In this document: positions 28,947 through 32,055 of the stretch, piece by piece | Position numbering within the stretch: the stretch's first letter is position 1 | How the letters are laid out: every line of letters starts with the position of its first letter | DNA from: Steroidobacteraceae bacterium | GTDB lineage: Bacteria > Pseudomonadota > Gammaproteobacteria > Steroidobacterales > Steroidobacteraceae | Reading direction: 5' to 3' | DNA: 37,352 nt | NCBI GenBank assembly: GCA_019683695.1 | Contig: JADGHX010000028.1 | Coordinates: 1-37,352, forward strand | Translations under genes and position numbers: made by a program | The notes under the pieces: generated by a model | What the model was told of the DNA's origin: nothing | Database searches by the model: none | What the model saw: the letters and a program-made list of their open reading frames with translations, nothing else

Positions 28947-31142
28947 TCAAGATGAGACGACGCGCCCGTCCGCGGTGAGACGAATCGCGGCGGCAATGGC
29001 CGATGGCAGACCCTTTGGAGACTCAATGACGCGCACGCGCTGCTTGCCCATTGCGGCTGTGACAACGGGCAGCCCCGGGTGACCGCGGGCGATCAACACA
29101 TCGCCCGTACAGTGGGGCGCGAGCAAGGAGAGCAGATCGCGCAAGCCTTCAACGGAAGGCACCGGGGCGCGGCGATCTGCCGGGGGGCTCCAGTCCGCGA
29201 TGGCAAACAGATCGAATCGATCCAGCGGCAGCCCGGTCGATGCGAGGTCCCTTCCGTCCGTGTCCAGAAGGATTGCCTCCGATGACTGGTCGATGAGTAC
29301 CGCGCGCGTATCCGGGAGTATCGGACCGCGCTTCGCGCGAATGCAGTGGGCTCCCACATATACGCCTTCCGCGCTCACCGTCCCGGCCCGTATCCCGAGA
29401 CGGGAAAGCAGCTCAGCGCTTTCGCGCACGATGCTCGGTTGATTGCCGCTGCTTAGCACCAGCGCCGAGGGAATGCGCCCATCACCGGGAACCAGCTTTC
29501 GTAGCAGTTCCGCATGGAAATGTGGCAACGCCAGCGTACTGAGCTGCAGCTGCGCATTGACCTCACAGATTGCCGCGCCGGTTTCGCGCCACGAACGCGC
29601 GATGTCCGGAATGAGCAGATCGACTCCGGCGAGGTCGAGCCTCAACGCGTGAGCCGCGCGCTCGCAGAGCGTCGCGTTGTCCGGATGCATGCGATCGAAC
29701 ACCGGCACGGGAATGCCGCCCATCGAGATGTTCGCCGCCCGCCGTAATCGCACGAAGCGCCCCGCTTCGGGCACGGAATCGGCGGTCAGGCCCGCAAGCG
29801 CCAGCAGCTCGAGCGCCTCTTCGTCGAGCACGAGCCGTGCGAGCAGGGACCAGTCGTCATCACCGCGCCGCGGATCGCGATTCTCTGCAGCAACCAGCTC
29901 CCGCACAGATCTCGTTCCATCCCCCGTGACGCCACCCGGTATACGTTCCGTCGCGCCTACGGCCCTGCCGCGGAAAATGTACACGCGATAATTGCGACCC
30001 CCGACGTGCTTTTCCACTAGCAGGTCCTCCGCGTACTTGCGCGCGGGCTCGAACGCAGCGCGCAGCTCCGCCTCAGAAGCGAGACTGGCCGAGACCCCCA
30101 CGCCGCCATCCTGATTGAGCGGCTTCACCACCACCGGATAGCCGAGAGCGGCCGCCGCCTCGATCGCGGTATCGAGGCTCTTCACGACGCGATGTTCAGG
30201 AACGGGCAGGCCCGCCTGTCGCAGCAAGGCACCCGCCACAGCCTTGTTCCGCGCCGCCTTGCACGAAATGATCGAGGTGGACTGGGTGAACGTGCTGTCC
30301 ATCCATCTGCCCCGGCTTCCCCAGCCATACTGGAAGACGCCACCCGGCAGCGGCAGCCACGGAATGCCCAGGCCGTGCGCGGCGGAGAGGAGATAGCGGT
30401 TGTTGTATCCGCGCGTGGCGTACCGGCTCATGCGCTCCAGCAGAGGCTTGAGGCGCCCGCGGTCGATCGGAGCAAACTCGTCCGTCCCCATTCGGAGCCG
30501 GTTCAGCCATTCAACGAGCCATGCCAGGGCTTCCGCCAGCGCGGGCGGCGCAATCGCAGGCAGCGCGAGCAGCCAGTGCCTGATCGTCGTGGGCATCAGG
30601 CGCGCTCCGTACGCCGGAGTGCGCGTCAGCCCTGCGGACTCGATGGGCGGTGCCCCATCCGTCGAGAGCGCGTTTGTGCGGGAGGTTCGATACACCGTCA
30701 CGCTGCGCTGACTGGGCAGGGGAACGACACGCGCTTCCCCCATATCCGGCATGCCAGAGGCTTGCATCAGGCACCGGACTGCGCGCGCCATGCACGCCAC
30801 CACCTTCGCTGACGGCCGATTGATCGAGTTCGTGGCTAGGCTGTCGTGCGACGCGCGTTCCGCGCGCGCAGAGCCACCCAGGCACTCCTCGATGGCGATC
30901 AGCGCACGGCATGCGGCTTCCGCCCACCCGGCAGAATCAGTTATCGCGATGCGCGCCTCCACGCTTGGCGCACTCAGCCCATGCAGATACCCGGGTACGT
31001 GCCGCATGTCGCGCAAGATGAGCGCGCGCACGGCGCTCGTTCGCGCAGGTAGCGGCCTGCCGTTGCTTGCGCGCCGCGAGTGCGCGGGCCGCTTGCTTCC
31101 GGCGCCAGGCCCAGCAGCGCGTACAGGCGTTGTTTTCTGCAT
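28947..31142 (-). CDS. Cyanophycin-synthetase-like ATP-grasp protein with degenerate Mur domain
   Basis: A 731-residue protein with the domain order of cyanophycin synthetase (CphA). There is a poorly conserved N-terminal domain, an ATP-grasp domain (about residues 245-520) and a shortened Mur-ligase-like C-terminus (about 550-731). The ATP-grasp part is convincing: TSIISCKAARNKAVAGALLR, GYPVVVKPLNQDGGVGVSAS, VEKHVGGRNYRVYIFRGRAV, GDGTRSVRELV, ENRDPRRG and the magnesium-site EVNAQ. The Mur P-loop expected as GTNGKTTT is replaced by SSGNQPSIV (near residue 560), so ATP binding there should be lost. The substrate-side motif after EVNA also differs from CphA. It likely ligates an amino acid or peptide, but the product is unknown. 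The first ~35 residues are arginine-rich and the start may be later. Confidence 0.8.
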   Translation of the reverse strand: MQKTTPVRAAGPGAGSKRPAHSRRASNGRPLPARTSAVRALILRDMRHVPGYLHGLSAPSVEARIAITDSAGWAEAACRALIAIEECLGGSARAERASHDSLATNSINRPSAKVVACMARAVRCLMQASGMPDMGEARVVPLPSQRSVTVYRTSRTNALSTDGAPPIESAGLTRTPAYGARLMPTTIRHWLLALPAIAPPALAEALAWLVEWLNRLRMGTDEFAPIDRGRLKPLLERMSRYATRGYNNRYLLSAAHGLGIPWLPLPGGVFQYGWGSRGRWMDSTFTQSTSIISCKAARNKAVAGALLRQAGLPVPEHRVVKSLDTAIEAAAALGYPVVVKPLNQDGGVGVSASLASEAELRAAFEPARKYAEDLLVEKHVGGRNYRVYIFRGRAVGATERIPGGVTGDGTRSVRELVAAENRDPRRGDDDWSLLARLVLDEEALELLALAGLTADSVPEAGRFVRLRRAANISMGGIPVPVFDRMHPDNATLCERAAHALRLDLAGVDLLIPDIARSWRETGAAICEVNAQLQLSTLALPHFHAELLRKLVPGDGRIPSALVLSSGNQPSIVRESAELLSRLGIRAGTVSAEGVYVGAHCIRAKRGPILPDTRAVLIDQSSEAILLDTDGRDLASTGLPLDRFDLFAIADWSPPADRRAPVPSVEGLRDLLSLLAPHCTGDVLIARGHPGLPVVTAAMGKQRVRVIESPKGLPSAIAAAIRLTADGRVVSS

Positions 31143-31276: not shown

Positions 31277-31762
31277 TCAGATCGCGACCGCCGAGCGGAT
31301 CTTTGCCCACGCACGCGCAAAGTACCTGCTGTCGATCCACGACCCCCCCAAATCCAGCGCCGCCGCCGGATTGTCGGATCGGCAGCCAGAGAGCTCGAGG
31401 TAACGATAGAAGTGACTGACGGATTTCCGCAGTCGCTGCATCAGAGCACTTCGACGCCCCTGTGCGACACGCATCCGCAGGTACGCCTGCAACTCCTCGG
31501 TACGCGCAGTGATCAGCGTTCGGCTGTACGTACGATGCATCCACGCGTCAAACGCCAAAAGATCTTCCAGATATCCCCGACGAAGCCTCCAGGAAAGACG
31601 CTCCTCGACGCACCTCACATCAAGAAAACGCTCGATGAGATCCGTCGACAGTCCCTCCCAGAGATCCACAATGCGCGCCTGCTGGCGAGATGCTGATTCA
31701 GCGTTCGTGCACATCGCCAGCAATACCCGCCCCGGCACATTCCCGCTGACTGCGTGCATCAT
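31277..31762 (-). CDS. Stand-alone Xer-type core-binding domain protein
   Basis: A 161-residue protein matching only the N-terminal SAM-like (core-binding) domain of XerC/XerD tyrosine recombinases. The segments are LIERFLDVRCVEERLSWRL, GYLEDLLAFDAWMH, TEELQAYLRMRVAQGRRSAL and LRKSVSHFYRYLELSG with DNPAA. The catalytic domain with its R, H-x-x-R and Y residues is absent, and no such sequence follows in another frame. ATG 31762 is chosen because GGGAG lies 8 bp upstream; a TTG at 31777 is possible. It may be a truncated recombinase or a DNA-binding partner. The CphA-like gene follows after 134 bp on the same strand. Confidence 0.72.
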   Translation of the reverse strand: MMHAVSGNVPGRVLLAMCTNAESASRQQARIVDLWEGLSTDLIERFLDVRCVEERLSWRLRRGYLEDLLAFDAWMHRTYSRTLITARTEELQAYLRMRVAQGRRSALMQRLRKSVSHFYRYLELSGCRSDNPAAALDLGGSWIDSRYFARAWAKIRSAVAI

Positions 31763-32055
31763 CAACTCGTCTCCCAATCCATCAGCCCGCGTTCACGATG
31801 CGGGAGGCTGAACGATACGGCGCCGCGCGTGACGCAAGATGCAGATGCGTACAGCCTGAACGCATTTGCGAAGAATCTCTCCTGGTTGGCGGCTTCGCTG
31901 GTCCCGTGTGTCGTCTCGAAAACGTGTCCACGATGGATCAGAGTCGATCGCGCGCAGGAATTCACGCCATAAACTGCCGCCCGACGCGGCCGGGCAGTCC
32001 TCGGGACTATCCGGTCTGCAGCGTTCCACCTCTGACTCTCACGGTTGCGGCAGCC

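Follow-up and report, generated by a model that had tools for sequence, protein, structure and literature searches.

The ligase gene at 28947-31142 (-) of the window, by which we mean the whole 37,352-nucleotide stretch of contig JADGHX010000028.1 from a Steroidobacteraceae bacterium, belongs to a family of CphA-like proteins that have lost the Mur site and in which the ATP-grasp site appears intact. We favor the view, with moderate confidence, that these proteins probably are single-site ATP-grasp amide ligases of small-molecule biosynthesis, in which the dead Mur domain would act as a scaffold. The small-molecule role is suggested because about half of the relatives adjoin either methyltransferase genes or genes for a hotdog protein and a P450. 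The features of the window ligase to which we refer below are:

28947..31142 (-), CphA-like single-site ligase, 731 aa as called; an alternative start at M46 (31007) is plausible
30492..31022 (-), N-like domain, residues ~41-217, with a low-confidence stretch at 146-184; HxxEH absent
29523..30413 (-), ATP-grasp (G) domain, residues ~244-540; ATP/Mg residues K300, K340, R386, D508, E527 and N529 present
29541..29564 (-), EVNAQLQL, residues 527-534; the family usually has EVNAQP and CphA1 has EVNA(G/A)PGFR
28962..29486 (-), pseudo-Mur domain, residues ~553-727; Mur core fold without the P-loop, the catalytic D/H pair or the C-terminal lid
29436..29453 (-), place of the lost P-loop, SSGNQP, residues 564-569, opposite GTNGKT

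The ORF is intact, with an ATG start and 731 codons for amino acids; its frame is open for 735 codons (to 31154) and GC content by codon position is of the coding type. Residues 1-36 have pLDDT values below 50 in our AlphaFold2 model, and M46 (31007) looks closer to the starts of homologues than does the called ATG. The model, which was built with 31 family sequences, reached a pLDDT of 83.3 and a pTM of 0.82, and it matched both CphA1 (7wae; Z 29.9, rmsd 4.9, 599 aligned) and CphA2 (7ta5; Z 25.0, rmsd 4.2, 561 aligned) over its whole length. At the sequence level, phmmer aligned residues 231-684 with CphA1 7lgm (from A. baylyi, by its title) at an E-value of 3.7e-69, and ranked the solved relatives in the order CphA1 enzymes, CphA2 (8fxh, 7ta5), and GshF. 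With PRK14016, the NCBIfam cyanophycin synthetase model, the match extended over positions 159-571 of 871 and scored 311.7 bits, far short of the cut-off of 877; the other NCBIfam cyanophycin synthetase score, 275.1 against 850, was also below its cut-off. Pfam assigned only generic ATP-grasp domains. The motifs ENRDPRRG and EVNAQLQLST occur in the ORF exactly as a preliminary description of this DNA had quoted them, and the Mur-like half, put there at about 180 residues, spans residues ~553-731.

In the phmmer alignment to 7lgm, ITGTNGKTTC of CphA1 lies opposite VLSSGNQPSIV of the window ligase, which bears out the P-loop replacement proposed earlier, and the flanks can indeed still be aligned, with GTVSAEGVYVGAHC pairing with GQTSTDAVYIDGNV of CphA1. 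The C-terminal domain of the model has an alternating alpha/beta structure, with pLDDT above 90 in most blocks. Given the whole-length fold matches to CphA1 and CphA2 together with the loss of the P-loop, the Mur core fold is therefore retained and its chemistry is not. The loss is shared by the relatives, as not one of the 41 family ORFs contains the GxxGK[ST] motif, two of them (L067, L098) having been read in part; the column of K499 (TeCphA1 numbering, used for all columns below) contains Lys in L071 and L077, with no P-loop motif around either. Our controls were the 46 P-loop-bearing ORFs among 55 reference ORFs, the other nine being set aside, so that the P-loop score of these controls (46/46) holds by construction and is no independent control. 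The D585/H586 pair of the M domain is absent throughout the 34 aligned family rows, 20 of which are gapped at D585, and present in 45 of the 46 CphA1-like controls; mutation of both the D and the H in SuCphA1 inactivates the M domain (PMC9262961). Furthermore, Mur_ligase_M was not among the 12 Pfam families matched by the 31 scanned members at E-values up to 0.01. The Mur lid is also missing from the window ligase: the model can be aligned up to residue 710 of TeCphA1, in which the lid comprises residues 724-876 (PMC9427784), and the NCBIfam match ends at position 571 of 871. A working nucleotide site in the C-terminal domain of the window ligase was considered and rejected, the place of the P-loop having neither Lys nor Thr and the D/H pair being absent.

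To delimit the family, a family-specific alignment was scanned against the GTDB genome collection (84,980 species), which gave 38 loci. One of these, L093, was rejected as a member, being an ordinary P-loop-bearing CphA; the others, three loci from further genome searches and the window make up the 41 anchors of this study. Some anchors share an assembly (L064 and L069; L068 and L094; L073, L086 and L097), and L059 and L089 seem to come from a single species. The plasmid collection contained no match to more than 80% of the query in 127 records. Most carriers are Pseudomonadota, but the initial label of a proteobacterial ligase is too narrow, as the family also occurs in MAGs of Chlorobiaceae (seven) and Cyanobacteriota (one). 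Among 47 re-read ligase ORFs, a P-loop was seen only in L093 and L096_11590, both of which fall outside the family clade. In the full-length tree (69 rows), the family forms a clade of 36 rows with an SH-aLRT support of 98, and lies outside a 25-row clade (98) that contains CphA1, the P-loop-less neighbors L054-L057 and a CapA fusion, L058. The family clade was recovered in the G-domain tree (67 rows) with a support of 97. Both trees contain hand-chosen reference ORFs (26 of 55 in the full-length tree and 23 of 55 in the G-domain tree), and partial or duplicate rows (L067, L080, L089, L095 and L098) were dropped from them. The proposed lineage of single-active-site, CphA-like ligases is thus real, in that the P-loop loss is common to the relatives and these form a supported clade outside CphA1. 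For the same two reasons, we reject a sequencing error within an ordinary CphA1 as the origin of the altered P-loop. A search for a published description of the family found none in titles and abstract openings, most subscription journals lying outside its range.

Other CphA-like proteins without a P-loop are found near the family or on the CphA1 side of the trees. A five-row clade (L042, L044, L052, L073:4244-6031 (-) and L094:4626-6743), made up of CphA-like ligases with no recognizable P-loop, adjoins the family in the full-length tree with a support of 100. The paralogues L054-L057, from four genomes of the same class, resemble the family in being CphA-like without an M-domain P-loop; unlike the family, they are placed on the CphA1 side by both trees and are encoded near P-loop-bearing CphA1 genes, and two of them have EVNAGPGLLMHL. 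They appear to represent a separate P-loop loss on that side. Also on the CphA1 side is L058:5371-8385, on a Microvirga ossetica plasmid, in which a P-loop-less CphA-like ligase is part of a chain annotated as a CapA family protein.

The window ligase is 40-57% identical to the family rows in the G domain, 10-27% in the N-like domain and 14-28% in the pseudo-Mur domain, and 61% identical to L068, which is outside the family-row count, over 226 G-domain columns. Judged by these identities, the ATP-grasp domain is the conserved part of the family proteins. We counted residues at individual columns in 34 of the 41 anchors, leaving out L067, which has a broken frame, and L068, L073, L089, L094, L097 and L098; the roles of G-domain residues are those given for TeCphA1 in PMC9427784. 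K220, K261, R309, R323, N394, D431, E450 and N452 are retained in every lettered row of the 34. Of these, R323 and N394 contact the beta-carboxylate of the substrate aspartate in TeCphA1, and the alpha-carboxylate of the same aspartate is held by R458 (PMC9427784). The R458 column has Arg in all 46 controls and in only one of the 34 family rows (L099, across an alignment gap), with a gap in one further row; the window ligase has no Arg there. The altered substrate pocket that had been suspected is thus seen in nearly the whole family in the form of the missing aspartate-holding Arg. At H267, none of the 32 lettered family rows has His, compared to 42 of 46 controls, and since this residue is needed in CphA1, the G domain of the family may work differently. 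E215, which holds the arginine of the polymer in TeCphA1 (PMC9427784), is likewise replaced in all 32 lettered family rows, with K295 in the window ligase, and is a weak criterion for CphA1 because only 28 of the 46 controls have Glu. Position 454 is Gln in 30 of 34 family rows, so that the usual motif EVNAQP takes the place of EVNA(G/A)PGFR. The EVNAQLQL of the window ligase is a deviation within the family, and this copy may be drifting, because its L532 breaks a Pro conserved in 33 of 34 family rows. HxxEH, which belongs to the primer-making motif in the N domain of CphA1, occurred among the scanned cluster members only at residue 478 of L087, outside the N domain.

In sum, the fold order of CphA1 (N-like, ATP-grasp, Mur-core) is shared by the family, and the 46 CphA1-like rows are 30-47% identical to the window ligase in the G domain. 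In contrast to CphA1, the family has a dead M site, no lid, no R458 or H267, and no retained E215, and forms a separate clade. GshF and N-acetylglutaminylglutamine synthetase have homologous ATP-grasp domains and gave only partial matches below the cut-off; the fold match to GshF (3ln6) covers window residues 98-554, with the pseudo-Mur domain outside. GshF also has no counterpart of His267, Glu215 or Arg458 of CphA1 (PMC9427784).

We examined the gene neighborhoods of the relatives, counting upstream genes at the 36 anchors with at least 900 bases upstream and downstream genes at 35 anchors (L034 was admitted by hand). A SAM methyltransferase gene lies upstream of the ligase at 13 of 36 anchors, with a dehydrogenase gene between the two in L072 and L077. 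L033 also has an upstream methyltransferase and is outside the 36, as a long open frame leaves less than 900 bases, and L071 and L078 have methyltransferase fragments only. Downstream, a ~154-aa protein followed by a P450 was found at 8 of 35 anchors. This protein was modeled as a hotdog fold (pLDDT 87.4), for which SAV606 is the best fold match by E-value and is practically tied with FabZ. The eight P450-type ligases form one clade in the full-length tree (86); in the G-domain tree L096 falls outside this clade and the remaining seven are supported at 99. No anchor has both contexts by the counting rules used, and 19 of the 41, the window included, have neither, some of them with short flanks or a methyltransferase fragment. 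AMP-binding enzymes are encoded on the same strand at four loci. In the P450-type genome G325, a methyltransferase related to that of L068 lies ~5.5 kb from the ligase, and its cluster (L102) includes TauD, glycosyltransferase, phosphodiesterase and AMP-binding genes, of which the scanned AMP-binding gene is just below the Pfam cut-off. A gene similar to phosphodiesterases/nucleotide pyrophosphatases recurs near the family ligases of L088, L092 and L097, which form a group, and also in the cluster of G325 (L102:986-2593). Isonitrile-type pathways combine a hotdog enzyme with TauD and AMP-binding enzymes. We do not claim such a pathway here, because TauD was limited to L102, apart from a weak match in L096, and because the hotdog fold fails to separate SAV606 from FabZ.

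Further arrangements were seen in two Comamonadaceae MAGs. In L064:1-6027, a Mur ligase (365 aa) and an ATP-grasp-methyltransferase fusion (905 aa), whose ATP-grasp part is CphA-like, precede the family ligase, and an AMP-binding enzyme follows. In L067:7080-8693, the family ligase is split into several frames, and its methyltransferase and AMP-binding neighbors are intact.

The window ligase itself has none of these partners. Its neighbors are hut genes and a GNAT gene to one side and, to the other, a hybrid histidine kinase and a truncated recombinase ORF. The truncated ORF, an integrase-like fragment directly upstream of the ligase (31277-31777 (-), 166 aa), matches tyrosine recombinases in their N-terminal SAM-like domain alone (Pfam E 8.6e-5). 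In the full-length tree, the window ligase groups with L084 and L059 (89), beside methyltransferase-carrying members from Thauera and Idiomarinaceae (93). No methyltransferase, hotdog or P450 partner gene is present in the window, and a search of its genome (97.65% complete, 312 contigs) gave no match to two methyltransferase types (those of L068 and L033) or to the hotdog protein, with a positive control for the L068-type methyltransferase query only. That query gave matches in G097 and G325, only weak ones in G112 and none in G572, the last two genomes having the other methyltransferase type; the L068-type search therefore works. The only P450 match in the window's genome is distant (28%). 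The same genome has no second CphA, with only short generic ATP-grasp matches besides the window ligase, and no cyanophycinase. The window ligase is an orphan member of the family, as its own genome has no methyltransferase, hotdog, second CphA or cyanophycinase match and only the 28% P450 match. A cyanophycin cycle in the host was rejected on the absence of a cyanophycinase and a second CphA from this genome.

The closest alternative would be an enzyme of the CphA2 type. CphA2 is a cyanobacterial enzyme that recycles beta-Asp-Arg (PMC10206079, PMC9262961), and a protein of this kind would polymerize beta-aspartyl dipeptides, beta-Asp-Arg or a variant, using the ATP-grasp site alone. The anatomy is alike: CphA2 (7ta5, 8fxh) has a single ATP-grasp site and an M domain without P-loop or lid (PMC9427784), and it is similar in length and fold to the window ligase, as the match to 7ta5 over the whole length (Z 25.0) indicates. 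A tree that groups CphA2 with the family was not rejected by the AU test (p 0.624) and was even slightly likelier than the unconstrained one, in a comparison based on the G-domain tree with a 231-residue fragment of 8fxh. Moreover, 8fxh has Lys in place of H267, so that the loss of this His in the family is no argument against CphA2-like work. However, the unconstrained G-domain tree places the same 231-residue fragment on the CphA1 side, and the phmmer match of CphA2 to the window ligase is limited to the G domain. No cyanophycinase that could supply dipeptides was found in any of the four carrier genomes tested by a search that gave matches in 5 of 14 control genomes, and the window's genome has only the short ATP-grasp matches noted above besides this ligase. 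The methyltransferase, P450, hotdog and AMP-binding neighbors of the relatives are also ill-suited to a storage polymer. P-loop-bearing CphA-like genes are present in G325 (L053) and at the L096 locus, so that in those two carriers the family ligase may have some connection with a cyanophycin-like polymer. On balance, we regard the CphA2 reading as unlikely for the family. Of the unknown peptide or polymer that the preliminary description had proposed as product, the polymer is not indicated, and about half of the relatives' neighborhoods point to small-molecule biosynthesis.

Pairing of an ATP-grasp enzyme with a methyltransferase also occurs in graspetides, and the family ligases could in principle modify a ribosomal precursor peptide. 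This is very improbable, given that the whole-length fold is that of CphA, that the graspetide ligase PsnB ranked only 48th, and that clustering of neighbor ORFs of at least 70 aa yielded no conserved small precursor gene. Slightly less probable still is that the window ligase is a decayed CphA1 or a functionless sequencing artefact. The orphan copy adjoins a truncated tyrosine-recombinase ORF, and one position of a conserved motif is occupied by an unusual residue, all of which would be consistent with decay, but the 735 open codons with coding-type GC by codon position, the retained ATP/Mg residues, and a P-loop loss that is common to relatives in a clade outside CphA1 all argue against it.

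Under the single-site amide ligase reading that we favor, the ATP-grasp domain would convert a carboxylate into an activated acyl-phosphate for attack by an amine, as the conserved residues and the chemistry of ATP-grasp ligases suggest. The amine substrate is probably not gripped by an alpha-carboxylate, as aspartate is in CphA1, because R458 is missing in nearly all of the family. The Mur-derived domain, having lost its nucleotide-binding and catalytic residues, would probably be a structural or substrate-guiding scaffold. From the neighborhoods, we infer that the ligase of about half of the relatives probably works with a methyltransferase, or with a hotdog protein and a P450, to give a small peptide-like product; the window copy appears to stand alone, its partners being absent from the search of its genome. 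More speculatively, these genes might belong to an undescribed, NRPS-independent pathway for peptide natural products that comes in two forms, ligase with methyltransferase and ligase with hotdog protein and P450. In this tentative scheme, which we consider possible and rather doubtful, the hotdog enzyme may produce an acyl building block of an unusual kind, such as a beta-amino one, and the pseudo-Mur domain might dock partner enzymes or intermediates. If the family does act in small-molecule biosynthesis, the scaffold of cyanophycin synthetase would have become a one-site small-molecule ligase, in addition to its storage role in CphA2, and the three-gene ligase-hotdog-P450 cassette, as in L069, would be a compact target in which to look for a new product.
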